The notes below the pieces were generated by a model. The model saw nothing but the letters and a program-made list of their open reading frames with translations. It did no database searches and was not told the origin of the DNA. A stretch of 34,421 nt of DNA from Coriobacteriales bacterium (GTDB lineage: Bacteria > Actinomycetota > Coriobacteriia > Coriobacteriales > Atopobiaceae): the NCBI GenBank assembly GCA_030533135.1, contig JAUNJR010000008.1, positions 1 through 34,421 of the forward strand, given 5' to 3'. A program made the position numbers and the translations under genes. Positions 2,468-18,893 of this stretch are shown piece by piece. The first letter of the stretch is position 1; each line of letters begins with the position of its first letter.

Positions 2468-4555
2468 TTACTCTTCAGTCCATTCGTCCGTTGTCTCTTC
2501 AGTCCACTCGTCCTCAGTCCAGGTCTCTTCCGGAACCTCTTCCTCGACGACCTCTTCGGTGAACAGGTCCTCTTCCTCCTCCTCATACCAATAGTTGTAG
2601 TAGTACCCAGAGTTGACGGAAGAATCGGTAGACGTAAAGGTCCACTCACTGTTGTCCTTGTAGGTGGGTGTGACGCCACAGTCGGGGAAGCTCTCCCAAC
2701 CAGACGATGAGTACAGCTTCTCGGCGAAACGTCCCCAAACCGGAACTGACGTCTGGTAGCCGTGGCCCTCGTATCCGTACACGTAGATCATTGATTCCTC
2801 GAGGTAGCCGCACCACACGGCGCAGGCCATGGATGGGGTGTATCCGACGAACCAGAGGTCGCGTGCGCCAGAGGACGTACCAGACTTGCCAGCCATATCA
2901 ACGGGGATGTTGAAGTTGTACGAAAGGATGGCGGCCGTACCAGCGCCGCGCACGGTGCCCTTCAGTACGTCGGTTACGGCCTCAGCGACCTCAGGAGCCA
3001 GAACCTGCTCGGGAGTGTCAACGTGCTCATAGATGACGTTGCCGTTGCGGTCCTCGATGCGGGTGATGGCCACGCCTTCGCGATGGACGCCATCGGCGGC
3101 CAGGGTGGCATAGGCCTCAGCCATCTGCACCGGCGGGATGCCTGCGGAGCCCAGCGCCACAGAAGGATACGGCGGCAGGTCCACATCGATGCCCATGGCA
3201 TGGGCGGTAGCGATGACGTTCTCAATGCCAACGGCCAAGGCGACCTGGGCGTACGGCGTGTTGAGGGACTCCTCGGTGGCATAGCGCAGCGTTACGGTGC
3301 CGTAACTGGCATTACCGTAGTTCTGGACCTCCCAGTCATCGGTAATTTTCAGCGGTGAGTTTGCGTTCAGCATGATTGAGGGGTTCATGCCTTGGCTGAT
3401 GGCCGTGGCAAGGGTGAACATCTTCATGGATGAGCCAGGCTGGCGCCGTGCCTGCGTTGCGGTGTTGAACTGGCTGACCTCGTAGTCACGACCGCCAACG
3501 ATAGCCTTGATGTAACCGGTCGATGGCTCAATCGCCGCCAAGCCAAACTGCAGGTTCGGGTCTCCGACGACGTCAAGCTGCTCTCTCACGGCCTCTTCAG
3601 CATACCGCTGCCACGTGGTGTCCAGCGTGGTATAGACATGCAGACCGCCCTGCAGGATGGTGTTGTAGTCAAAGTCCTCAAGCAGCAGCGACTGCACATA
3701 GTCAGAGAAGTATGGATACGGGCCCACAGGATCGAGGTATGCACCGTGGTTAAGCACGAGCTCCTCGTTCACAGCCTCGTCGTACTGTTCCTTTGTGATG
3801 TCGCCCGCGTCAAACATGCGCATAAGCACGACATTGCGGCGCTTGGTCGCCAGGTCGGGGTTGACTGTGGGGTCATAGGCAGAGGGTGCCTGGGGAAGAC
3901 CGCAGAGCAACGCGGCCTCGGAAAGCGTCAGGTCGCTTGCGTTCTTGTTGAAGTAGTTGATGCTTGCGGCCTGAATGCCGTAGGCGCCGTCGCCGTAGTA
4001 AATGGTGTTGAGGTACATCATCAGGATTTGGTCCTTGGTGTACATCTTCTCCATTTGGATGGCGATATAGGCCTCGCGGACCTTACGCTTCAAGGAGTAG
4101 TCAAACTGCTCGTCAGACAAGACCGTGTTACGTACCAGCTGCTGCGTGATGGTGGAAGCGCCTTCGGAGCTACCGGAGAGCTGCGCAATGACGGCACGGA
4201 TGATGGCCTGCGGGTCGACACCGTTGTGCTTGTAGAAGCGAATGTCCTCGGTGTCAACCGAAGCAGTCAGAACATACTGGGAGACCTGGTCCATGTCGAT
4301 GATGCGACGGTTCTGCAAGTAATACTCAGCAATGACCGTGCCATCCGCGGCATAGATCGTTGTAGGCTCAGGAACCAGGTATGCGTCAGCAGACTGGTAG
4401 TCGGGAAGGTCCTCGAGCCAGTTGTTGACCATCATGGTCAACGAGAAGAGCAGAGTCGCCATGAGAAGCATCTGGAAGGCGATGAACCCAGCGATGGAAA
4501 AGGCGACGACATGCGTACGTGCGTGCGCGCGGGCTCTGCGTTGGCGAACGCCCAT
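2468..4555 (-). CDS. Class A penicillin-binding protein (glycosyltransferase/transpeptidase)
   Basis: A 695-residue bifunctional murein synthase. It polymerises lipid II and cross-links the stem peptides outside the membrane. Residues 1-14 are Arg-rich and are followed by one signal-anchor helix (about 16-45). The GT51 domain shows the EDIRFYKHNGVD motif with Glu103 as the likely catalytic base, then ASTITQQLVRN. The transpeptidase domain has SSMK with nucleophile Ser375, an SLN motif in EESLNTPYAQ, and K557-S-G-T, a common variant of KTGT. The C-terminus is an unusual tail of about 45 residues made mostly of Glu, Asp, Thr and Trp. AGGAGG lies 5 bases before the ATG, and a TATAAT box 35 bases upstream suggests its own promoter. 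The family is certain; the paralogue name is not. Confidence 0.95.
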   Translation of the reverse strand: MGVRQRRARAHARTHVVAFSIAGFIAFQMLLMATLLFSLTMMVNNWLEDLPDYQSADAYLVPEPTTIYAADGTVIAEYYLQNRRIIDMDQVSQYVLTASVDTEDIRFYKHNGVDPQAIIRAVIAQLSGSSEGASTITQQLVRNTVLSDEQFDYSLKRKVREAYIAIQMEKMYTKDQILMMYLNTIYYGDGAYGIQAASINYFNKNASDLTLSEAALLCGLPQAPSAYDPTVNPDLATKRRNVVLMRMFDAGDITKEQYDEAVNEELVLNHGAYLDPVGPYPYFSDYVQSLLLEDFDYNTILQGGLHVYTTLDTTWQRYAEEAVREQLDVVGDPNLQFGLAAIEPSTGYIKAIVGGRDYEVSQFNTATQARRQPGSSMKMFTLATAISQGMNPSIMLNANSPLKITDDWEVQNYGNASYGTVTLRYATEESLNTPYAQVALAVGIENVIATAHAMGIDVDLPPYPSVALGSAGIPPVQMAEAYATLAADGVHREGVAITRIEDRNGNVIYEHVDTPEQVLAPEVAEAVTDVLKGTVRGAGTAAILSYNFNIPVDMAGKSGTSSGARDLWFVGYTPSMACAVWCGYLEESMIYVYGYEGHGYQTSVPVWGRFAEKLYSSSGWESFPDCGVTPTYKDNSEWTFTSTDSSVNSGYYYNYWYEEEEEDLFTEEVVEEEVPEETWTEDEWTEETTDEWTEE

Positions 4556-4589
4556 GCAAACCTCCTAGGGGACGATACAGACATACAGC

Positions 4590-4595
4590 ATTATA
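4590..4595 (-). promoter_or_regulatory. -10 box for the PBP gene
   Basis: A perfect TATAAT on the minus strand lies 35 bases before the PBP start codon. No good -35 box is seen at 16-18 bases, so the call rests on the -10 element and its position. Confidence 0.45.
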
Positions 4596-4704
4596 CGTTG
4601 ACCGCGGCTCATCCCTACAGCCGATACGCAATGAGCACATGTGTGAAAGGTTTAGGAGGACTGAAGATTCGGCGTACGCACTGCGACGAAGGCCATAGGG
4701 CTCC

Positions 4705-5715
4705 CTAGTCGATCTGGTAGTGCAGGCCAAGCAGTGACCGGGCGCGCTTGCGGGCACGAGCAAGAGCTCCCACCTGCGAATGTAGCGCCCCCTTGAGTCC
4801 ATCGTTGATGCGCTCGGAATCACAGACGAAGCTGTAGTCAATGCGGTCCACAATGCGCCTGATGCACTCCTTGACTGTTGGGTCTTGAGGGTCAAAGCCC
4901 TCGAGCAGCGCCTTTATGTGCCAGCATCCACGATTGTAATGGCCTTCGATGATGCGCGGCGCCGTGACGCCATACCCACTCAGGATGTCGTCCATCTCGA
5001 TCCAGCGATCTGCGAGGATGGTCGGATCGCCCACCACGCGGGCCTTTCCTGCGCTGAAGTCGCGGTAGTAATAGAGGCACTCGTCCACGTAGACGATGCA
5101 GCATGCCTGCACGAGCGTTTCCATGAGCCAAGGGTTGTCAGCCCAGCCTGCCCCTGGAATCTCGCGCATGCGGATGTTACAACCATCGATGAAGGCCCTG
5201 AGGTAGATGGCGGACCAGATGCTCGGATGGTGGAAGAGGAACTCCGCATCGTCTGCCAGCGCAAAGGGTGCGTCAACCGTAGCAATGCGATGCAGGTACG
5301 GTGCTGGCTCAAAGCGCTGCTGTGAGGTATCGGGGTTGACAATGTCCCAAAACGCCGCCTTTACGATGTCTGGGTTGTCGTTTTCGGCTGCCGCTGCAAG
5401 GAGCTTCTCGTACATGGTGCGATCGATATAGTCGTCAGGCTCGACAATGCCTACGTAGAGGCCAAGCGCCTCATCAAGTCCTCGGTTGACGGCACTCCCG
5501 TAGCCACCATTGTCTTTATGAATGACGTGGAGGCGCTCGTCATGGGCGGCCCAGGCATCAGCGATGTCGCCGGAACTATCGGTTGACCCGTCGTCTACAC
5601 AGATGACCTCAATATCTTGGACGGTCTGTGCGGTGAGCGATGCCAGGCACTGCCCGACATATCGCTCGACATTGTAGATGGGCACGATGATGCTGATGAG
5701 GGGCGTGGTATCCAT
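4705..5715 (-). CDS. Family 2 glycosyltransferase
   Basis: A 336-residue GT-A fold glycosyltransferase, probably adding sugars to a lipid-linked surface glycan on the inner face of the membrane. The N-terminus has ISIIVPIYNVERYV, then DDGSTDSS for nucleotide binding, and EPDDYI as the DxD-like metal site around residue 92. The C-terminal half carries no predicted membrane helix. The open frame could begin at a TTG at 5721, but GAAAGGG ends directly against that codon, while the ATG at 5715 has 6-base spacing; the ATG is preferred. The gene is divergent from the GH25 lysozyme gene and precedes the PBP gene in the same direction. Donor and acceptor sugars cannot be read from the sequence. Confidence 0.88.
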   Translation of the reverse strand: MDTTPLISIIVPIYNVERYVGQCLASLTAQTVQDIEVICVDDGSTDSSGDIADAWAAHDERLHVIHKDNGGYGSAVNRGLDEALGLYVGIVEPDDYIDRTMYEKLLAAAAENDNPDIVKAAFWDIVNPDTSQQRFEPAPYLHRIATVDAPFALADDAEFLFHHPSIWSAIYLRAFIDGCNIRMREIPGAGWADNPWLMETLVQACCIVYVDECLYYYRDFSAGKARVVGDPTILADRWIEMDDILSGYGVTAPRIIEGHYNRGCWHIKALLEGFDPQDPTVKECIRRIVDRIDYSFVCDSERINDGLKGALHSQVGALARARKRARSLLGLHYQID

Positions 5716-5910: not shown

Positions 5911-7950
5911 ATGGCCACCGTTCGCAAGCAAATCGTGCGCATCCTCTTCTGTACGCTTCTTACTCTGGGTGTTATCTCCACGGTCGCGTTGGCCGATGAC
6001 AACACGGAGGGCTTTGGCGTCAACAGCTTCCGTTACCAGGACGGAGAGCGCGCTGCAACCGAGTATGTCGAGGGAACCGATGAGGACGAGCTCAGCGCAC
6101 AGGCGCAGTTCGTCATGTGGACGCGCAACTCCAAGGGCAATTACGTCAGCAGTAACGGCAAGGAGATTCCTGGGGCCCTGCGCCGCGGCATCGACGTCAG
6201 CGAGTGGAACGGCACCATCGACTGGGCAAAGGTCAAGAATGACGACGTGAGCTTTGCCATCATCCGTTGCGGCGGCACATTCATGACGTCGCGCAAGCAG
6301 TACGGTGACGACGAGTTTCTGCGCAACTGCCAGGAGTGCGAGCGTCTGGGTATTCCCTACGGCGTGTATTTCTTCTCGACGGCCAAGAACGTCTCCGACG
6401 CCAAGAAGGAAGCGGCCTTTACGCTGAACTGCCTTAAGGGGCTCAAGCCCACGATGCCTATCTACTATGACCTTGAGTGGGAGGACCTGGCCTCGACCAG
6501 TAACCGGAAGATGTTTGCCGACATCTCCACGACCTTCTGCGAGGCCATCGCTGCGGCGGGTTACACCCCTGGCGTGTATGCGAGCACCAGCTGGTGGGAA
6601 AACTACCTGACTGACCCCTGCTTTAATCGTTGGACCAAGTGGGTTGCCCAGTACTACAGCAGGTGTGAGTATGAGGGTGACTACGATATTTGGCAGTGCA
6701 CGTCGGTTGCTACCATCAAGGGCATCAGCGGGTCGAATAACGTCGACCTCAATTTCGACTTCCGTGGTACGTGGGGCCCCGGTGGCGAGTGGGTGAAGAG
6801 CGGCTCAACCTGGAAGTATAAGTATGAGGACGGTACCTACGCCTCTGGCAACTTCGTCAATATCGATGGTGCCGTCTACTGCTTTGACTCAAACAACAAC
6901 GCCCTGAAGGGCTGGCACAGGATCAACGGGAAGTACTACTACTTTGACGCGACGACGCGCATCATGCAGCGCGGCTGGATGCAGCTGGATGGCGTGTGGT
7001 ACTGGATGAATTCCGGAACGGGCGAGATGGCGACCGGCTGGACGGAAGTCGATGACGTGTGGTACTACTTCGACCCGACGAATGGCGCCATGAAGCAGAG
7101 CACGATTTTCGAGGTCAACGGCAAAAAGTACCTTGCCAACGAGAGCGGCGCCTGCCTTGAGGATTCGTGGGTCAAACTGAACGGCAAGTGGTATCTCACC
7201 AATTCGTCCTGCGCACTGCGTTCGGGCTGGGTGACCATCGGCAACGTCAAGTACTACCTCGATCCCAAGACCTATGCCATGAAGGCGTCTGAGAGCTTCA
7301 AGGTTGATGGCCAGACCTATACGGCAAACGCTTCTGGTGTGGTTGGCTACCTCACGGGCTGGGTGCAAGCTGATGACGGCCGCTGGTGGTATAGCAACGG
7401 TGACGGTACCTACCTCAAGAACACGTTCAAGACCTTCGGAAAGACGAAGTACTACTTTGACGGGTCGGGCTGGATGGCCACGGGCTGGAAGAAGATCAGC
7501 GGCAAGTGGTACTGGTTCTCCGACTCTGGCGCGATGGCCACAAACCGCTGGATCTCCGGCACCTACTACGTCGGCTCCGACGGCGCCATGCTGACCTCCA
7601 CGACCACGCCCGACGGCTACAAGGTCGGCGCTGACGGAGCGTGGCTGGGCAACGAGGGCTGGCGCAAGTCCGGGGACCGTTGGTGGTACAGCTATGGTGA
7701 CGGTACCTGGGTGGCTAACCAGTTCAAGAAGATCGGCAAGGCCACGTATTGGTTTGACAAGTCAGGCTGGATGGCCACGGGCTGGAAGAAGATCAGCGGC
7801 AAGTGGTACTGGTTCTCCGACTCTGGCGCGATGGCCACAAACCGCTGGATCTCCGGCACCTACTACGTCGGCTCCGACGGCGCCATGCTGACCTCCACGA
7901 CCACGCCCGACGGCTACAAGGTCGGCGCTGATGGAGCGTGGATTCGCTAG
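5911..7950 (+). CDS. Secreted GH25 lysozyme with choline-binding-type repeat tail
   Basis: A 679-residue exported muramidase that would cut the MurNAc-GlcNAc bond of peptidoglycan. A signal peptide (about 1-28, ending in TVALA) precedes a short linker. The GH25 domain runs from about 90 to 285. It shows GIDVSEWNG with Asp95, and YYDLEW with Asp187 and Glu189, matching the catalytic acids of the Cpl-1 type. From about residue 287 to the end there are tandem aromatic repeats of the form GW-x-x-x-x-G-x-WYYF-x-x-x-G-x-M-x-TGW, the cell-wall/choline-binding type. One repeat carries a Cys pair (codons at 7153 and 7210). The last two modules come from a recent 297-bp duplication. GGGAGG precedes the ATG. 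Ligand choice (phosphocholine) is inferred from the neighbouring genes. Confidence 0.93.
   Translation: MATVRKQIVRILFCTLLTLGVISTVALADDNTEGFGVNSFRYQDGERAATEYVEGTDEDELSAQAQFVMWTRNSKGNYVSSNGKEIPGALRRGIDVSEWNGTIDWAKVKNDDVSFAIIRCGGTFMTSRKQYGDDEFLRNCQECERLGIPYGVYFFSTAKNVSDAKKEAAFTLNCLKGLKPTMPIYYDLEWEDLASTSNRKMFADISTTFCEAIAAAGYTPGVYASTSWWENYLTDPCFNRWTKWVAQYYSRCEYEGDYDIWQCTSVATIKGISGSNNVDLNFDFRGTWGPGGEWVKSGSTWKYKYEDGTYASGNFVNIDGAVYCFDSNNNALKGWHRINGKYYYFDATTRIMQRGWMQLDGVWYWMNSGTGEMATGWTEVDDVWYYFDPTNGAMKQSTIFEVNGKKYLANESGACLEDSWVKLNGKWYLTNSSCALRSGWVTIGNVKYYLDPKTYAMKASESFKVDGQTYTANASGVVGYLTGWVQADDGRWWYSNGDGTYLKNTFKTFGKTKYYFDGSGWMATGWKKISGKWYWFSDSGAMATNRWISGTYYVGSDGAMLTSTTTPDGYKVGADGAWLGNEGWRKSGDRWWYSYGDGTWVANQFKKIGKATYWFDKSGWMATGWKKISGKWYWFSDSGAMATNRWISGTYYVGSDGAMLTSTTTPDGYKVGADGAWIR
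6770..7947 (+). repeat. Choline-binding-type repeat tract of the GH25 lysozyme
   Basis: About 390 codons of tandem roughly 20-residue aromatic repeats encode the wall-binding tail. The tract ends with the cap TPDGYKVGADGAW. The same type of cap closes the two other repeat proteins of the window, at 19416-20876 and 32360-34408. Confidence 0.85.
7471..7941 (+). repeat. Recent 297-bp tandem duplication inside the lysozyme gene
   Basis: Bases 7471-7644 recur at 7768-7941 with one difference in 174 (C at 7635, T at 7932). The offset is 297 bases, or exactly 99 codons, so the frame is kept. The intervening 123 bases are less similar to their counterpart. The pattern fits a young in-frame duplication or gene-conversion tract. 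Confidence 0.95.
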
Positions 7951-7967: not shown

Positions 7968-8013
7968 AAAGGGTCGCCCCCTGCGCCAAAGCTGACGCAG
8001 GGGGCGACCCTTT
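7968..8013 (+). terminator. Terminator after the lysozyme gene
   Basis: A perfect 18-bp stem (7968-7985 with 7996-8013) with a 10-base loop begins with AAA and ends with TTT, 17 bases after the stop. It is a strong intrinsic terminator. Confidence 0.9.
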
Positions 8014-8071
8014 ATGCCTCCGTCACTCCATATGAGAATTGTTCAATGGTCTTCTTATGCTGCCTTGTAAT

Positions 8072-8117
8072 TGAACGTTCATTCAGGTAGGATTCTTTCG
8101 GTATTGCTGAACGTTCA
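8072..8117. promoter_or_regulatory. Twin palindromic operator candidates upstream of the CDP-choline fusion gene
   Basis: The perfect 10-bp palindrome TGAACGTTCA occurs at 8072-8081 and again at 8108-8117, with centres 36 bp apart. The second copy lies only 3 bases before the Shine-Dalgarno GGAGG. I saw no other full copy in the window. Two identical dyads immediately before a gene whose product starts with a winged helix suggest autoregulation. This is inference. Confidence 0.6.
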
Positions 8118-8129
8118 TTTGGAGGACGC

Positions 8130-9902
8130 ATGTCTCTGACCAAGAACGAGTTCCAGATTCTGGAGGTCCTCTCCAGCGTGCCCGAGCGCTTTTCTCAGCG
8201 CAAGCTGGCGACCGCTTCTGGTCTTTCGCTGGGTACTGTTAATGCGACGCTCGCTCAGTGCACGCAGAAGGGGCTTTTGGATGGCTACACGGTAACCGAT
8301 AAGGGTTACGAGGAGCTTGAGCCATACACCGTTGACAATGCGGTCATCATGGCCGCTGGTTTGTCTTCTCGCTTTGCTCCCATCTCTTACGAGAAGCCCA
8401 AGGGCCTGCTCCGCGTCAGGGGAGAGGTGCTCATCGAGCGCCAGATTGAGCAGCTGCTTGAGCGTGGCATCTCAGACATTACCGTGGTCGTGGGCTATAA
8501 GAAGGAATACTTCTTCTATCTGCGTTCCAAGTACGGCGTCCGCATTGTCGTGAACCCTGACTATGCCACCAAGAACAACGTTTCCACCCTCTGGCGTGTC
8601 CGTCATCTGCTGGGGAACACCTACATCTGCAGCTCGGACATCTACTACGAGGAGAACCCCTTCAAGCGCCACGTGTATCAGGCCTACTATGCATCCGAGC
8701 ATGTGGACGGCCCCACTAACGAGTGGTGCATGACCACGAACAAGGCTGGCCGCATCACCAAGGTGGTTATCGGTGGGTCTAATGCCGACATCATGCTGGG
8801 CGAGGCGTACTTTGACCGCACCTTTTCACGCGATTTCGTGGCGCTCCTCAAGTCGGAGTACACAAATCCCGAGACCGATTCCAAGCTCTGGGAGGACCTC
8901 TACGTCGAGCACATCAAGGACTTTGACATGGTCATCAAGCTCCATCCACGGGGCACCATCCATGAGTTTGATAGCCTTGATGAGCTTCGCGGCTTCGACC
9001 CCGATTTCATTCAGAACGTCGACTCGGACATCTTCAACAACATCGTGTCGGTCCTCGGGTGCGACCGCTCCCAGATCCACGACTTCTACCCGCTGGTCGA
9101 CAGCCTCACGAACCTGTCGTGCCACTTTGCGGTGGGCGACGACGAGTATGTCTACCGCCATCCTGGCGTGGGCACCGAGAAGATGATTGACCGCGCTGGT
9201 GAGGAGGCCGCCCTGCGCCTGGCGAAGGAGCTCGGTCTTGACTCCACCTTTGTCTACGAAGACCAGAAGAAGGGCTGGAAGATCTCGAGCTTCGTCAAGA
9301 ACGCGCGTCAGCTTGACCCGCATGACCCCGTCCAGCTTGAGCGTGCGATGACCATGTGCCGCCAGCTGCATGAGTGTGGCGCGACGTTGGAGCGCAAGTT
9401 TGATTTCTGGGACGAGGGCCTGCATTACGAGGACCTGCTGCTTGAGTTTGGCCCCATCGATGTTCCGGGCTACTACGAACTCAAGGAGAAGGTTGGTCGC
9501 CTGCGCGCCTACGCCGCACAGGATGGCTACGAGCCCTGCATCTCGCACAACGACTTCTTCTACCTGAACTTCCTGCTGGATGAGGATGACAACCTCAACC
9601 TCATCGACTGGGAGTATGCGGGTATGAGCGACCCGGCTAACGACTTCGGCACCTTCTCTGTGTGCTGCGAGCTCTCGGAGGACGAGGCCAACCAGGCCAT
9701 CGACTTCTACTTTGGCCGTCCGGCCACCTTCGAGGAGCGCAGGCACTTCTGGGTGTTCGTCGTGCTTGCTGGTTGGTGTTGGTACGTCTGGTCGCTCGAG
9801 AAGGAAGAGGAGGGCGACAACATCGGCGAGTGGCTGTACATCTACTACAGCTATGCGGTTGACTACGTCGACAAGATCCTTTCCTGGTACGAGCAGGCCT
9901 AA
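8130..9902 (+). CDS. Winged-helix / nucleotidyltransferase / choline-kinase-like fusion (LicC-LicA type)
   Basis: A 590-residue protein with three domains. Residues 1-65 look like a MarR-type winged helix, LTKNEFQILEVL to GYTVTDKGYEEL. Residues 70-300 are a sugar-phosphate/choline-phosphate cytidylyltransferase, with the signature AAGLSSRFAP followed by KPKGLL (75-94). Residues 310-585 resemble choline kinase: SHNDFFYLNFL with His473 and Asp475 (Brenner-type motif), then IDWEYAG with Asp493 and Glu495. It would phosphorylate choline and make CDP-choline, the LicA and LicC steps of phosphocholine decoration. It is followed after 36 bases by a BCCT transporter, most likely in one operon. GGAGG precedes the ATG. 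Other small amino-alcohols such as ethanolamine remain possible substrates. Confidence 0.87.
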   Translation: MSLTKNEFQILEVLSSVPERFSQRKLATASGLSLGTVNATLAQCTQKGLLDGYTVTDKGYEELEPYTVDNAVIMAAGLSSRFAPISYEKPKGLLRVRGEVLIERQIEQLLERGISDITVVVGYKKEYFFYLRSKYGVRIVVNPDYATKNNVSTLWRVRHLLGNTYICSSDIYYEENPFKRHVYQAYYASEHVDGPTNEWCMTTNKAGRITKVVIGGSNADIMLGEAYFDRTFSRDFVALLKSEYTNPETDSKLWEDLYVEHIKDFDMVIKLHPRGTIHEFDSLDELRGFDPDFIQNVDSDIFNNIVSVLGCDRSQIHDFYPLVDSLTNLSCHFAVGDDEYVYRHPGVGTEKMIDRAGEEAALRLAKELGLDSTFVYEDQKKGWKISSFVKNARQLDPHDPVQLERAMTMCRQLHECGATLERKFDFWDEGLHYEDLLLEFGPIDVPGYYELKEKVGRLRAYAAQDGYEPCISHNDFFYLNFLLDEDDNLNLIDWEYAGMSDPANDFGTFSVCCELSEDEANQAIDFYFGRPATFEERRHFWVFVVLAGWCWYVWSLEKEEEGDNIGEWLYIYYSYAVDYVDKILSWYEQA

Positions 9903-9938: not shown

Positions 9939-11492
9939 ATGAACGAGCAGCAGCTAAAAACGGCGGACAAGAGCAGAATCGACTGGATGATTACCCTTGT
10001 CCCGTTCGTTCTCATCATGGGCCTGGCACTCTATCTGTTCGTCCTTCCCGAGCAGGCCAACGTGGTCATCTCCCAGGTGCGCTTCTTCTTCGGCGACACG
10101 TTGGGCAGCTACTACATCATCATCGGCATCGCCTTCCTGGCGATATCTGCCTTCCTGTGCTTCTCCAAGTACGGTGACATCGTCCTAGGCGAACCGGACG
10201 AGAAGCCGCAGTACAACTTCTTTACCTGGGGCTCCATGATGTTCACGTGCGGCCTGGCCGCGGACATCCTGTTCTACAGCTTTGCCGAATGGGTCATGTA
10301 CGCGACCAACCCGCATATCGCCGAGATGGGCGGCTCCATCACCGAGTGGGCAGGCGTGTTCCCGCTGTTCCACTGGAGCTTTATCCCTTGGTCGTTCTAT
10401 CTGGTTCTTGCGGTCGCCTTTGGCTTCATGGTGCACTGCAGGAAGCGTGACAAGCAGCGCTATTCCGAGGCATGCTTGCCGGTTGTCGGCGAGAAGAACG
10501 CTCACGGCCTGCTTGGCCGCATCATTGACCTCTTTGCCCTCTTTGCGTTGCTCGCGGGCACCGCGACGACCTTCTCGGTTGCCACTCCCTTGATGGCCGA
10601 GATCATCGTGACCCTGTTTGGCATCAAGGTCTCCCGCACCATCGTCACCATCGTCATCCTTCTCATTACCTTCGCTGTGTATACCTATGACGTTCTTCAT
10701 GGCATCAAGGGCATCAGCTTCACGGCGAAGCTCTGCATCTACCTGTTCTTTGGCCTGCAGCTTGCCTTCCTGCTCTTTGGTGGTCAGGGCCGCTTCATCA
10801 TCGAGAACGGCGTCGAATCTCTGGGCAAGATGATCCAGAACTTCATCGGACTGAGCACTTACATGGATGCTGGCAGGACGAACAACTTCCCGCAGGACTG
10901 GACCATCTATTACTGGGCGTACTGGATGGTGTGGTGCATCGCCGCTCCGTTCTTCATTGGCAACATCTCCAGGGGCCGTACGATCAAGCAGACCGTCCTA
11001 GGTGGCTACATCTTTGGTGTCGGCGCCACGATCAGCTCGTTCGTCGTGCTTGGCAACCATAGCCTCGGCCTTCAGGCTGCCGGCTCCGCGGACTTCATCG
11101 GACAGTATGCGGCGGATGGAGACCTCTACGCCCTGATCATCAAGATTGTCCAGACCATGCCCGCTGATGGACTGTTCCTTGCCTGGATCATGATTACGAT
11201 GATTGCATTCTATGCGACGAGCTTTGACTCGATTGCCTATACCGCAGCGTGCTACAGCTACAAGAATCTTGCTGAGGACGAGAAGCCGCACACGATGATT
11301 ACGTTCACGTGGTGCCTCCTTCTGATTGCCCTGCCGCTCGGCCTGGTGTTCTCCGAGAGCAGCATGAACAACATCCAGAGCGTCAGCATCATCAGCGCGT
11401 TCCCCATCGGCATCATCATGATCGTGATGATATGGAGCTTCTTCAAAGACGCCAAGAAGTACATGGAGGAGAAGGGCTTGACCAAGAAGTAG
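9939..11492 (+). CDS. BCCT-family transporter, probable choline importer
   Basis: A 517-residue membrane protein with 12 hydrophobic segments, the standard BCCT length and layout. The family signature is clear around residues 318-350: DWTIYYWAYWMVW, then PFFIGNISRGRTIKQ, which contains the Trp box of the substrate site. BCCT carriers import choline, betaine or carnitine using Na+ or H+. The gene sits 36 bases after the choline-kinase-like fusion with GGAGG before its ATG, which points to choline uptake for CDP-choline synthesis rather than osmoprotection. It would replace the LicB permease of the classical lic loci. A terminator follows. Substrate is inferred from context. Confidence 0.92.
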   Translation: MNEQQLKTADKSRIDWMITLVPFVLIMGLALYLFVLPEQANVVISQVRFFFGDTLGSYYIIIGIAFLAISAFLCFSKYGDIVLGEPDEKPQYNFFTWGSMMFTCGLAADILFYSFAEWVMYATNPHIAEMGGSITEWAGVFPLFHWSFIPWSFYLVLAVAFGFMVHCRKRDKQRYSEACLPVVGEKNAHGLLGRIIDLFALFALLAGTATTFSVATPLMAEIIVTLFGIKVSRTIVTIVILLITFAVYTYDVLHGIKGISFTAKLCIYLFFGLQLAFLLFGGQGRFIIENGVESLGKMIQNFIGLSTYMDAGRTNNFPQDWTIYYWAYWMVWCIAAPFFIGNISRGRTIKQTVLGGYIFGVGATISSFVVLGNHSLGLQAAGSADFIGQYAADGDLYALIIKIVQTMPADGLFLAWIMITMIAFYATSFDSIAYTAACYSYKNLAEDEKPHTMITFTWCLLLIALPLGLVFSESSMNNIQSVSIISAFPIGIIMIVMIWSFFKDAKKYMEEKGLTKK

Positions 11493-12080: not shown

Positions 12081-12914
12081 TTACTGCTCAGGACCAAAGC
12101 CGTTGGTCCACCAAGCGTCAAGTTGGTGGTTGATTCGCTGGTCTTCGGGTGGGAGCTGCATGTAATCGCCGTACCAATTGTGGAGACGCTGCTCCCAGCA
12201 CGACATGACGGGAAACTCGTAGCCCTCAAACTCCATCATGACGGTTTTCTCGAACTGTTCGATGGGCATGCGATCCTCTCCGTGGGAAAGCGATGCAAGC
12301 GAACCGACCGTGCCGGTCGATCCGTAGGGTACCGACAACTGCACCGACTTAAGTCGCTTTGTCCAGTACATGCGGAAGGGGTAAGACCTGAGGATGGGAC
12401 GGGTAACAAGGCATGCCGTCGCGACAGCGCGATTGGGAATGGCCTTCCAACGCCACAGGCCAGCCGTTAGCATCTGCTTGGGGAACCAGGCTTCTTGGCA
12501 AAGCGCAAGTCCGTCCTGCAGGTCATCCGGGTTTCCATCGATGGGAAAGATATCGACCCAGATGTAGTTCCGCCCGGGAAGATTCATGGTCGTGTGGTTG
12601 ATCTCCGCGCGAAGTGTTACGAACCGCACATGAGAGGAAACCTCCAGAGGAAGCCCGAAGTATCCTTGGAGCTCCGTATCCTCCTTCTTGAACGTGTCAC
12701 TCATGGACAGCATCTTCTCGAAGTCCGGGCGAGGCATACAGACGTCAACGTCATCGTCCCAGGGAATAAATCCTTTATGCCGCACAGCGCCAATGATGGT
12801 GCCATAATCCAGCGAGTATCTCAGGCCATGCTCCTTGCAAAGGTCATCGAACATTCTCAGCGCTCGTAAACCTTCAAACTGCTTCTCTCGCAAAGTCAGC
12901 ATGCTCTTTGCCAT
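12081..12914 (-). CDS. LicD-family phosphotransferase (first of three)
   Basis: A 277-residue protein of the LicD/fukutin nucleotidyltransferase-fold family, which moves a phospho-alcohol such as phosphocholine from its CDP form to a glycan. The signature GTIIGAVRHKGFIPWDDDVD spans residues 38-57. The Asp cluster (53-57) is the metal site. A later motif, NYIWVDIFPIDG, is also typical. The frame stays open to 13163, but that extension overlaps the divergent flippase gene and has no family similarity. The ATG at 12914 has AGGGG about 7 bases upstream and starts the conserved region, so it is chosen. Phosphocholine as the transferred group is inferred from the neighbouring fusion and transporter genes. 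Confidence 0.9.
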   Translation of the reverse strand: MAKSMLTLREKQFEGLRALRMFDDLCKEHGLRYSLDYGTIIGAVRHKGFIPWDDDVDVCMPRPDFEKMLSMSDTFKKEDTELQGYFGLPLEVSSHVRFVTLRAEINHTTMNLPGRNYIWVDIFPIDGNPDDLQDGLALCQEAWFPKQMLTAGLWRWKAIPNRAVATACLVTRPILRSYPFRMYWTKRLKSVQLSVPYGSTGTVGSLASLSHGEDRMPIEQFEKTVMMEFEGYEFPVMSCWEQRLHNWYGDYMQLPPEDQRINHQLDAWWTNGFGPEQ

Positions 12915-13078
12915 GTGATACCCCTGACGCCACCGTCCTTCATCCGTACAAGCGCATGATAGCGCAGGGGCTGAAAACTGCAAGGGCAGCCCAAGCGGCT
13001 TGAGATTTCGTGGCTTTTCTGAAAGCGCTGCAGTAGTGCCATAATAAGCCCCACGACATACTGTAGTGAGGACTGCCT

Positions 13079-14341
13079 GTGAAGGATCAAACGCGTAGCA
13101 ATTTGAATCTTGGAGCCGTATTCTGGAACTCTGCCGGAAGCTTTGCATCCGCGGCTCAGTCATTCGTGTTCTTGATTGCGGTTACCCGAGTTATGGGTGC
13201 CGAGATCGCGGGTGATTATTCCATCGGTGCCGCAATTGCACAACTTATGTGGACGGTTGGCCTGTTTGATCAGTCCTCCTTTCTTGTCACGGATACAGAG
13301 GGCCGATTCACATACGAGCAGTATCTCTCGTTCAAAATCTTCTCGTGCATCGTCATGGTGATTGGCAGCATCCTGTATGTTTTCTCGTTTGGCTACTCGC
13401 TAGAGAAAAGCATCCTCGCGCTGTGGCTCTGCGCGTTTAAGCTGGTCGATGCGTTTGCAGGGTACTACTACTCCGTCTTCCAGAAGTTCAACCGTCTTGA
13501 TGTGTCAGGTTTCACCATGTTTGTGCAGAACATCACGGCTATGGTGGTGTTCGTTCCGAGCGTGGTCATTACGAGGGACGTGACTCTCAGCGTTGCCTTT
13601 GCAACGGTCGCTATGGCTGTGGTCACCTTGGGCCTGTATCAGCTGCACCTGAAAGAGATCGAGCCCATTGGGAGTCCCGATTTCAGCCTCGCTCCGCTCG
13701 TCGACCAGTTTTTCCAGCTGCTTCCGCTTTTCTTGGGCAACTTTCTCTATTCCTACCTTGCAAACGTGCCCAAGTACGCCATCGAGCATGTTGGCACGAA
13801 CACGCTTCAGACATACTTCAACGTACTCTTCATGCCATCATTTGCCATCAACCTGTGCGTGCGGTTCTTCCTGCGACCCGCCGTCACCGTTCTCTCAACT
13901 TACTGGAGCGAACAGAACATCTCGGGGTTTGTTGGTCTCATCGCCAAGCTGCTTGCTGGAGTTGTTGGCGTCACGGCAATGTTTATGTTTGGCGCCTGGC
14001 TTGTGGGAATCCCCGTGTTGAATTTCGTCTTTGGAGTGGATTTGTCAGAGCACGTCGCCGTCCTCGTTCTTCTGCTGTTCGCCAGTGGCGTGATGGTTGC
14101 CGCGGATGTGCTCTTCTATCCCATCGTTATCTTCAGGAAGCAGATTGCCACTGTCGTGACCTACGGCATCGCTCTGGCATTTGGTTACCTGCTTGCTGAT
14201 GGCTTCGTCCTGTCTGGAGGCATGATCGGAGCATCGTTGGTGTACTTTGTCGAGGCGCTCATCGTGCTCCTGCTCTTTTTGGGCATCACCTGCTACATGG
14301 TCTTCAAAAAGAACGTGTTGCCAACGGGAGGGGAGGCTTAG
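13079..14341 (+). CDS. Polysaccharide flippase (Wzx/MATE-like)
   Basis: A 420-residue integral membrane protein with about 12 hydrophobic segments spread over its whole length. It resembles polysaccharide-repeat flippases of the MOP superfamily. The N-terminal part NSAGSFASAAQSFVFLIAVTRVMG, read here in two overlapping pieces around residues 17-40, and a long alternating loop-helix pattern support this. It would move lipid-linked oligosaccharide units to the outer face. The start is GTG with GAGGA 7 bases upstream. The stop codon overlaps that of the converging second licD gene. It lies between two licD genes, so the cargo is probably a LicD-decorated glycan. Confidence 0.85.
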   Translation: MKDQTRSNLNLGAVFWNSAGSFASAAQSFVFLIAVTRVMGAEIAGDYSIGAAIAQLMWTVGLFDQSSFLVTDTEGRFTYEQYLSFKIFSCIVMVIGSILYVFSFGYSLEKSILALWLCAFKLVDAFAGYYYSVFQKFNRLDVSGFTMFVQNITAMVVFVPSVVITRDVTLSVAFATVAMAVVTLGLYQLHLKEIEPIGSPDFSLAPLVDQFFQLLPLFLGNFLYSYLANVPKYAIEHVGTNTLQTYFNVLFMPSFAINLCVRFFLRPAVTVLSTYWSEQNISGFVGLIAKLLAGVVGVTAMFMFGAWLVGIPVLNFVFGVDLSEHVAVLVLLLFASGVMVAADVLFYPIVIFRKQIATVVTYGIALAFGYLLADGFVLSGGMIGASLVYFVEALIVLLLFLGITCYMVFKKNVLPTGGEA

Positions 14342-15201
14342 GCCTCTATTACGTTGATCCCGTCGCCAAAATCGAGTATGGCTGGTGCATGGGTGTAACG
14401 TTCATCCTCAGGTGGCAGGGTCATGTAATCACCGAAGTGGTTACGCAGGTAACCGTCACAGTCGTGCGGGGCAAAGACCCTCATATCATCAAAGGTGACC
14501 TCTTTCACGGGAAAGAGAGTGGCGTCGTCATGCTGTCCGTAGGCGGTGTAGCATACCGATGTCCAATTACCTTGACCATCGGCGTCTTGGAATGCACGAA
14601 AGACCTTGTCGCGCATCTGAGGTGTGCTCCAGAGCTGCGCAACGGTGAAGTGAGCAACAAGGCAGCCGGCTTTCAGAAGGGGTTTGAACGGCGCCTTCTT
14701 AGGGATATGGGGTGTGCGGACATGCCGAAGATACGAGAGAGACTGCCAGAACCGGGCGGTTTTGACTTGCTTTGCAGCAACCTTTGGGTTTGAGTCGAGG
14801 CGACAGTAGGGGAAAACATCAATGAAGATGCCTTCGTGAGCGTCGTTGCCCTTCAGCTCGCCAGCAGAGAAGCAGGTTCCTTCCTTGACGAGCTTGGCGC
14901 TAAATATCGCTTGGTTGGGATTGTTGTCAGGGGTGTAGAGTCCATATCCGTCTGGAAGCACCTGCGGCGCGATCTCAAGAAACCGTACGTAGTCGTCGTA
15001 TGGCATTCCAACGTCGATGTCATCGTCCCACGGAATGAATCCACCGTGCCTGACTGCCCCCAAGCAGGTTCCACTGTCAATGAAGTAGGTCAGACCTTGC
15101 TCTCGGCAGACTCGGTCAAAGACGCCGAGAAGTTCGCGCTGTACTTCCTGCAGACGCTCAAGGGAGTTGCCAGGGTATTTAACCTGCCGCTTGTCACTCA
15201 T
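14338..15201 (-). CDS. LicD-family phosphotransferase (second of three)
   Basis: A 287-residue LicD protein. The core motif GTCLGAVRHGGFIPWDDDID covers residues 44-63, with the metal-binding Asp group at 59-63. GIFIDVFPYCRLD follows in the middle, and the C-terminal FGDYMTLPPEDER is also seen in the first LicD as YGDYMQLPPEDQR. The frame is open to 15330, but the ATG at 15201 begins the conserved part. Its Shine-Dalgarno is weak (GTGAG), so the start is the least certain point. It converges with the flippase gene with overlapping stops and is divergent from the GT4 gene. Which acceptor it uses, and whether phosphocholine or another group is moved, cannot be told. Confidence 0.9.
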   Translation of the reverse strand: MSDKRQVKYPGNSLERLQEVQRELLGVFDRVCREQGLTYFIDSGTCLGAVRHGGFIPWDDDIDVGMPYDDYVRFLEIAPQVLPDGYGLYTPDNNPNQAIFSAKLVKEGTCFSAGELKGNDAHEGIFIDVFPYCRLDSNPKVAAKQVKTARFWQSLSYLRHVRTPHIPKKAPFKPLLKAGCLVAHFTVAQLWSTPQMRDKVFRAFQDADGQGNWTSVCYTAYGQHDDATLFPVKEVTFDDMRVFAPHDCDGYLRNHFGDYMTLPPEDERYTHAPAILDFGDGINVIEA

Positions 15202-15334
15202 GTTTCTCACAGACCTTCCACACCGTGGTCGCATGATTGACAATTCTACAATGTCTGAGTGACGTTTGGGAGTAAGGGGCCAGCTCGGGAATACGGGGTG
15301 ACGCACCGTCTGTGTGCTGATGAGCTCCAAGACC

Positions 15335-17777: not shown

Positions 17778-18893
17778 ATGGGCTTTCTGGCAAAACTGAA
17801 GCAGTTCCTGCCTCCGTCGTCGCGTTCCTTCCACGCTATGTATCGCGAGATGGTGGAGTCAAATTGGATTGTTAAGGACACGGGGCTGAAGCTCTATGAC
17901 ATGGACTACCAGTTCAATGCCCGGCTTGACCGGCTCGAGCGGCAAATTGCGACCCATGACACACACCTCAAAATGCTTGCCTGGGCCAACTATCGGAGGG
18001 CTGGCGAGTCACTCGACGATGCCAAGCGCCGTTTTTTCCACGACCTTCCCCAGGCCACTGGTGCCTCGAGGCTCCTGCAGTTGGCGACGTTGCAGCTTCT
18101 GAGTGAGTTCGATGCGCTGTGCAAGGAGCATCACCTGGATTATTGGGCATCTTGCGGGACCGTGCTGGGTGCCGTCCGTCATGGCGGGTTTGTCCCCTGG
18201 GATGACGACATCGACCTGGGCATGTTTCGCGAGGACCTTCTCAAGCTCATTGCGGCTGTGGAGGAGAGCGAGCGGTATCGCGTTACGGTGATCTACGACC
18301 GCTGGTTCATGTGCCGCCAGGTTCGCTTCAGGTATCTTGATGACTCCCTGCCGTGCTTCTTGGACCTGTTCATCTATGACTACACGAAGACCGCGGATGT
18401 CGAGCTTGTGGAGCGGCGTCACTTTGAGATGCGCGATCGTCTTGAAGCCGAGGCAACGTCTTCCCCTGCCGTGGCGCATTGGACGCATGACAACGCATCG
18501 ATTTCTGCCGATGACGAGCAGGCCCGTCCCATCAGGGAGCTCTTTGATCGCTACCTGGCAGAGCAGCAGTCAGGGGAGGGGCTCATGCTGCCCACCGCAA
18601 AGGGAGCACAGGGTATGGCATGGGCAGTGGACAACATGGAGGACCGCTGTGGCCGCCGGTGGCGGGTCTGCAGCCTTGACGAGGCCTTCCCCATGACATC
18701 GCTGGACTTCGAGGGACGTCAGATTCCAGTGCTCAGGAACTATGAAGTGTTCCTGGACGAGCTTTACGGAGATTACCTGTCCCTGCCTGACGATATCAAT
18801 GGCCACGACATCGTGCACCTTGATGAGGGCGTTCTGGACGCGCCTGAGACGCTATCAGCGTTGGAGCATCTTGTCTCGGGCGCAGGTGAGTGA
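17778..18893 (+). CDS. LicD-family phosphotransferase with N-terminal extension (third of three)
   Basis: A 371-residue LicD protein. The motif GTVLGAVRHGGFVPWDDDID lies at 127-146, about 85 residues further in than in the two other LicD proteins of the window. The extra N-terminal part (1-100) is charged and mostly helical in appearance, with no signal peptide. LPCFLDLFIYDYT replaces the usual IDVFP region, and LYGDYLSLPDD closes the domain. The Shine-Dalgarno is weak. The extension may bind a partner or the acceptor. A shared bidirectional terminator separates it from the converging carrier-protein gene. Transfer of phosphocholine or another CDP-linked group is inferred from the family and context. 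Confidence 0.88.
   Translation: MGFLAKLKQFLPPSSRSFHAMYREMVESNWIVKDTGLKLYDMDYQFNARLDRLERQIATHDTHLKMLAWANYRRAGESLDDAKRRFFHDLPQATGASRLLQLATLQLLSEFDALCKEHHLDYWASCGTVLGAVRHGGFVPWDDDIDLGMFREDLLKLIAAVEESERYRVTVIYDRWFMCRQVRFRYLDDSLPCFLDLFIYDYTKTADVELVERRHFEMRDRLEAEATSSPAVAHWTHDNASISADDEQARPIRELFDRYLAEQQSGEGLMLPTAKGAQGMAWAVDNMEDRCGRRWRVCSLDEAFPMTSLDFEGRQIPVLRNYEVFLDELYGDYLSLPDDINGHDIVHLDEGVLDAPETLSALEHLVSGAGE

Follow-up and report, generated by a model that had tools for sequence, protein, structure and literature searches.

A winged helix-LicC-LicA fusion protein with a conserved operator at its own promoter, a probable trigger enzyme of the CDP-choline pathway

Introduction

Few regulators double as enzymes of their own pathway, and these have been well studied, as exemplified by NadR and BirA. 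BirA consists of a winged helix domain (wHTH) and biotin protein ligase, an enzyme of its own pathway, and sits as a dimer on two spaced inverted half-sites over the promoter. NadR of Enterobacterales consists of an HTH, an NMN adenylyltransferase, and a ribosylnicotinamide kinase; NAD restores its DNA binding, ATP releases it, and orthologues without the HTH occur in other lineages (PMC12421817).

LicC and LicA of the lic1 locus of Streptococcus pneumoniae and Haemophilus influenzae are two distinct proteins, neither of which has a DNA-binding domain. A single chain with both activities, LicCA, was reportedly found in Treponema denticola by Kent et al. in 2004, a study cited in PMC7368946; to our knowledge, LicCA has no wHTH and feeds phosphatidylcholine synthesis. 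In PntC and PntC-AEPT of Treponema (6pd1), a LicC-like cytidylyltransferase is likewise fused to another enzyme.

Here we analysed a stretch of 34,421 nucleotides from a Coriobacteriales bacterium (the window), which encodes a protein with the domain order HTH-LicC-LicA. Its enzyme domains are clear homologues of LicC and LicA of lic1 with matching active sites, and the new element is the wHTH, the fusion of LicC with LicA alone being already known. Like NadR, it has an HTH, a nucleotidyltransferase, and a kinase in this order, for two consecutive salvage steps, and, by inference, control of pathway and transporter genes; NadR too has HTH-less orthologues elsewhere (PMC12421817). Unlike NadR, it has unrelated enzyme folds for choline and CTP instead of NR, NMN, and ATP, a MarR-type winged helix, and half-sites about 31 bp apart, and with LicC and LicA as enzyme domains it is not a member of NadR. 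From BirA it differs in the enzyme, and BirA has a single enzymatic domain; from PntC and PntC-AEPT it differs in that these act on 2-aminoethylphosphonate and have no wHTH. The fusion protein works like NadR and BirA and belongs to neither. No description of a wHTH-LicC-LicA protein was found in the open-access literature, which is weak evidence of novelty, limited to open-access sources.

Results

Domain architecture of the fusion protein

The open reading frame starts with ATG and is preceded by the ribosome-binding site GGAGG at 8121-8125. Its features were as follows.

8130-9902, forward strand: wHTH-LicC-LicA fusion protein of 590 residues (80 relatives with the same architecture)
8130-8327, forward strand: winged helix domain, residues 1-66 (Pfam MarR_2 and HTH_24, AlphaFold2 pLDDT)
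8328-9011, forward strand: LicC-like CTP:phosphocholine cytidylyltransferase domain, residues 67-294 (match to 1jyk)
9021-9884, forward strand: LicA-like choline kinase domain, residues 298-585 (match to 4r77)

With the whole chain as query, the Pfam family NTP_transf_3 scored 45.4 (cut-off 27), with NTP_transferase also over its cut-off, and APH and Choline_kinase scored 38.5 (cut-off 23.2) and 32.9 (cut-off 29). The AlphaFold2 model built from a 52-sequence alignment had a mean pLDDT of 92 and was used instead of the single-sequence prediction, which was poor (pLDDT 39) except for the wHTH. The three-part chain was present in all 80 relatives kept (the best 80 of 109), which matched from residue 1-3 to residue 585-590, and since all of them share it, a chance fusion or an assembly artefact was excluded. 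The preliminary description had placed a wHTH, a cytidylyltransferase, and a choline kinase in one 590-residue chain; this was borne out by Pfam, the matches to 1jyk and 4r77, the AlphaFold2 model, and the relatives, and the boundaries proposed there (1-65, 70-300, and 310-585) were correct within a few residues. No other such enzyme was found in the 87%-complete genome of the window at E ≤ 1e-20.

The winged helix, on which the preliminary description had staked its reading, was present in the structure prediction of the full chain, with pLDDT of 83-95 and the element order H-H-H-wing-H (helices at 5-16, 23-30, and 34-46, the wing at 50-55, and a helix at 57-66). Residues 1-72 alone scored over the curated Pfam cut-offs of MarR_2 (28.9 vs 27 bits) and HTH_24 (27.5 vs 21.9 bits), so that cut-off and predicted fold together place the domain among the MarR/HTH_24 winged helices. 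A sequence search with the wHTH only gave SlyA as the sole match, at E 0.28. The HTH core residues Q23, R24, S33, and G35 were conserved at 90% or more in the 52-sequence alignment.

Active sites of the two enzyme domains

The best solved relative of the middle domain was S. pneumoniae LicC (1jyk; phmmer E 4e-39, residues 70-290), and that of the C-terminal domain was S. pneumoniae LicA (4r77; phmmer E 1e-23, residues 325-577). Comparison of the model with these structures (Foldseek, VIA-align) gave a Z of 31.9 and an rmsd of 2.0 over 228 residues for LicC, and a Z of 28.6 for LicA. In the cytidylyltransferase domain, R81, P84, K91, D170, E279, and D281 were invariant in the 52 aligned sequences, and the whole-domain homology together with the nucleotidyltransferase signature (GxxxR..P..K, metal Asp, ExD) makes it a member of LicC.

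In the kinase domain, T327, H473-D475, N480, D493, E495, W551, and W554 were invariant in the same 52 sequences. By alignment, T327, D475, N480, D493, E495, Y496, W551, and W554 correspond to T29, D176, N181, D194, E196, Y197, W251, and W254 of LicA, which form its ATP and choline site (PMC4364537). The domain is a member of LicA by the Brenner motif HNDhX3N (H473, N474, D475, and N480), the IDWEY motif (I492-E495 and Y496), and the aromatic choline pocket. Tyr268 of LicA is replaced by Trp568, which is still aromatic, and Glu213 is replaced by Cys512 in the alignment with 4r77, a change that may alter the affinity for choline. Both enzyme domains look intact judged by their residues, and the use of phosphocholine and CTP, as well as enzyme activity, is inferred.

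Gene neighbourhood

The fusion gene is surrounded by the following features.

5911-7950, forward strand: GH25 lysozyme with choline-binding repeats, upstream of the fusion gene
7968-8013, no strand assigned: strong GC-rich inverted repeat with a T tract, read directly from the sequence
9939-11492, forward strand: BCCT (betaine/carnitine/choline) transporter (Pfam BCCT, E 1e-116)
12081-13163, reverse strand: LicD-family phosphocholine transferase
14338-15330, reverse strand: LicD-family phosphocholine transferase
17778-18893, forward strand: LicD-family phosphocholine transferase

The BCCT gene begins 37 bp downstream of the fusion gene in the same operon and takes the place of the LicB/EamA transporter of most relatives, in which the next gene was mostly an EamA transporter of the LicB type, often followed by LicD. 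With LicC and LicA fused, BCCT replacing LicB, and three LicD genes within 10 kb of the fusion gene, the locus belongs to the Lic-1 pathway, and the surroundings fit phosphocholine decoration of the cell surface. The GH25 lysozyme needs phosphocholine on the wall. The hairpin at 7968-8013 is likely, from its predicted form, the terminator of the lysozyme gene, separating it from the fusion operon.

An operator of two inverted half-sites

Repeated GTTCA and TGAAC were seen on reading the upstream regions of the relatives, and the pair they form is GTTC-N26..28-GAAC, with the half-sites about three helical turns apart. In the window, the pair occurs twice in tandem with a spacing of 32 bp start to start in both cases, and tandem operators were found in L008, L018-L021, L025, L038, and L051 too.

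8041-8076, no strand assigned: operator O1, GTTC-N28-GAAC, half-sites at 8041 and 8073
8077-8112, no strand assigned: operator O2, GTTC-N28-GAAC, half-sites at 8077 and 8109, abutting O1
8113-8116, forward strand: fifth half-site, GTTC, just upstream of the ribosome-binding site
8065-8093, forward strand: candidate sigma-70-type promoter TTGTAA-N17-TAGGAT, a consensus match only, between and inside the operators

The distance from GTTC to GAAC, start to start and within 250 bp of the gene, was 31 in 56 of the 81 upstream regions and 30-32 in 74 of them. The distance spectrum contained one sharp peak, at 31, and across 50 sets of dinucleotide shuffles no single distance was counted more than 3 times. 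The half-sites themselves numbered 317 in the 81 upstream regions, against 130 ± 10 expected. A second peak at 58 (31+27) came from loci with a third half-site, most of them in the Actinomyces group. Elsewhere in these loci, away from the 250-bp promoter region, the pattern was near chance level, with 63 matches in 990 kb vs about 45 expected. The spacer was only about 30% identical among 37 representatives with a distance of 31, which indicates that the half-sites and their distance are under selection, and as 31 bp is close to three turns, both half-sites lie on one face of the DNA.

The best-scoring -10 element was inside the operator in 55 of 74 cases, most often exactly 24 bp after GTTC, a position at which half-site 1 overlaps the -35 and half-site 2 closely follows the -10, near +1. 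This overlap with the promoter is partly forced and circular, given the similarity of the half-site's TTC to a -35 box. Most Actinomyces sites have half-site 1 over the -35, but in L003-L006 it is half-site 2 that forms it, so the geometry of the operator differs between lineages.

The fifth half-site has its partner GAAC at 8144-8147 inside the coding region (AAGAAC, codons Lys5-Asn6), and the pair spans 8113-8147 at 31 bp; the KNEF motif may produce it by coincidence. The short palindrome TGAACGTTCA (8072-8081 and 8108-8117) was considered as an operator and rejected, being not conserved across relatives; it is the junction of two abutting GTTC..GAAC pairs. The DNA at 8060-8125, which the preliminary description had named for gel shift, includes O2.

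Coupling of the operator to the winged helix

Seven of the 81 genes had no site within 250 bp upstream. In five of the seven (L022, L064; L046, L053, L061), the QR...SLGxVN motif of the HTH was broken; the enzyme scores were normal and both enzyme domains were intact. These five genes fall in two separate clades of the enzyme-domain tree, and their neighbours L009/L012 and L072 keep both the HTH and the site. In the other two, L007 and L023, the HTH was intact, the fusion gene was the third in its operon, and the site lay before the first gene, which was a lone choline kinase in L023. The operon of L007 is headed at 3370-5061 by a LicC-LicA paralogue of 563 residues without the wHTH, with two tandem operators upstream. 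Among 56 representatives at 85% identity, the association of HTH and site had a p of 3e-5. L052 had a site despite a deviation from the strict HTH motif (SLGTVS). In the related genome L109, an intact copy headed an operon in which a broken copy of the L053 type came third, and because the broken copy lies behind the intact one there, the L053-type case counts only weakly as a loss of the site.

The hold-out consisted of 48 further full-length proteins from Coriobacteriales, 35-88% identical to the first set. A site was present in 31 of the 41 with the HTH motif vs none of the 7 without it (Fisher p = 2.6e-4); the p-value is indicative, as the N-termini of the hold-out had been seen before its motif rule was set. 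Among the misses, h38, h71, and h75 had the site immediately before the first gene of the operon, and h27, h29, and h66 lay tightly behind other genes, inside operons. For h58, h81, h85, and h90, the HTH motif was present with no recognised site and no operon explanation.

At the sequence level, the protein qualifies as an autoregulatory enzyme, with a conserved operator at its own promoter that is coupled to the DNA-binding domain. That the enzyme controls its own operon had been suggested before, and it is supported by the operator frequency, its loss with the HTH in two clades, its displacement to the head of the operon in L007 and L023, and the hold-out. On this pattern, it is very probable that the fusion protein turns its own genes on and off, direct binding to DNA being inferred.

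Further sites

Extra sites were found before transporter genes, namely the ABC operon beside the gene in L003-L006, which ends in a wHTH-LicC gene, and an EamA-like gene in L074 and L075. In the genome of the window, the 10-base motif occurred at 8 places, comprising the 2 known operators, 5 places inside ORFs, and 1 intergenic place; this is about the chance number, and a wider regulon is therefore not claimed. The sole other intergenic match, GTTCA-N26-TGAAC at 4341-4376 of contig C188 of this genome (G000), had no obvious gene downstream and is possibly a chance match or a degraded locus. The regulon appears local because no gene follows this only other match. No GTTC..GAAC site was present upstream of the choline-binding lysozyme at 5911-7950, which for that reason is not claimed as a target.

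Spread of the family and its paralogues

The 80 relatives kept, the best of 109, belong to Coriobacteriia and Actinomycetaceae, and the family occurs in human-associated Actinomyces, Schaalia, Collinsella, Slackia, Olsenella, and relatives of Atopobium. In public annotation its members are only called ‘phosphotransferase’ or ‘NTP transferase domain-containing protein’. Actinomyces gerencseriae (L034), which carries the fusion protein and the site, reacts with anti-phosphocholine antibody (PMC10434233). Bacillota have a looser version with the wHTH: the Lachnospira eligens protein is 32% identical over 583 residues, and its operon also encodes a second NTP transferase and BCCT. A similar operon adjoins LicD on a plasmid of Lacticaseibacillus paracasei. 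The GTTC..GAAC operator was looked for and not found in the Bacillota relatives L195 and L196, which have the same domains, so the DNA signal is lineage-specific.

Diverged paralogues keep the head and often the site, and their gene setting varies. L103 (3008-6033) and L105 each encode a diverged paralogue of the wHTH-LicC-kinase type, which has a GTTC..GAAC site of its own and is followed by the ethanolamine permease EutH (Pfam 396 bits in L103); the paralogue is probably the CDP-ethanolamine counterpart. An ABC transporter operon at 7966-12314 of L003, found also in L105, L176, and L177, ends in a kinase-less wHTH-LicC (P0002, 295 residues), which could act on a substrate not requiring phosphorylation, e.g. 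2-aminoethylphosphonate. The gene at 2495-5161 of L187 and similar genes in L164, L186, L188, and L189 encode proteins of about 860-900 residues, of which the one scanned, that of L187, consists of four parts, wHTH-LicC-kinase-LicC. In L108 (1449-2801), a CTP-transferase-like domain is fused to an oxidoreductase of the GFO/IDH/MocA type, and the operon also contains a class-V aminotransferase, with a wHTH-LicC-LicA protein behind.

Discussion

We consider it probable that the protein is a trifunctional NadR-like trigger enzyme of the CDP-choline (Lic) pathway, which represses its own operon via the wHTH. What was observed is the architecture, the conserved catalytic residues, and an operator of defined spacing that is coupled to the HTH; the binding, the dimer, the sign as a repressor, the ligand, and the substrates are inferred, with no binding, expression, or enzyme data. 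In the proposed mechanism, choline would be imported by the co-transcribed BCCT transporter, or by LicB/EamA in most relatives, and phosphorylated by the C-terminal domain, and the middle domain would convert phosphocholine and CTP to CDP-choline, with which the LicD transferases would decorate the cell surface. The N-terminal wHTH would bind the GTTCA/TGAAC half-sites. Those lying three helical turns apart on one DNA face over the promoter would be bridged by a dimer, with one dimer on each operator where two stand in tandem. This binding would repress the operon of the protein itself and, in relatives, the choline transporter operon as well. A pathway ligand occupying the enzyme domains would set the affinity for DNA; by analogy with NadR and BirA, CDP-choline would be the likeliest co-repressor, in which case choline shortage would derepress uptake and activation.

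The operator may be autoregulatory and the protein nevertheless a substrate-induced repressor or an activator, with choline or phosphocholine releasing it or making it activate, so that the pathway is on when choline arrives. The regulated genes include choline transporters, and genes for scavenging are often induced by the substrate; the -35 formed by half-site 2 in L003-L006 and the varying geometry leave room for this possibility, whereas most Actinomyces sites, with half-site 1 over the -35, fit repression. We hold this possibility to be real and still unlikely, in that the protein closest in architecture, NadR, is under feedback repression by its product (PMC12421817). Product feedback by CDP-choline is modestly favoured over induction by choline, by analogy alone, and nothing in the sequence decides between them.

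Two further explanations deny the wHTH its role at the operator. A different, unlinked regulator might bind GTTC/GAAC while the wHTH serves elsewhere, e.g. in protein-protein contact; binding data are lacking and wHTH domains can be structural, but across lineages the site goes with the HTH motif in cis and disappears when that motif does, a joint loss that a separate regulator leaves unexplained, and the pattern is near chance level elsewhere, which makes such a regulator improbable. Even less credit can be given to the wHTH being a decaying relic of a merely bifunctional LicCA enzyme: HTH-less or broken paralogues do exist (the first gene of L007, L106, L107, and five in the first set), yet in the window, as in most relatives, the core of the HTH is conserved and paired with the operator.

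Beyond the trigger enzyme of choline, the gene settings of the paralogues point to the re-use of the regulators for different amino alcohols, which is an inference. A family of wHTH-cytidylyltransferase(-kinase) trigger enzymes may have kept one head and the GTTC-N26..28-GAAC grammar while the enzyme was re-tuned among choline (LicB/BCCT), ethanolamine (EutH; L103 and L105), and perhaps aminoethylphosphonate or others (L108, L003/L176, and L187), several of its members sensing their own product to control surface decoration; we regard the case for and against such a family as evenly balanced.

The operator provides a ready DNA target and the natural paralogues with a broken HTH provide controls, so the idea of a trigger enzyme is directly testable. 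If it is true, the family would explain how these bacteria tune their host-mimicking surface phosphocholine to the supply of choline.
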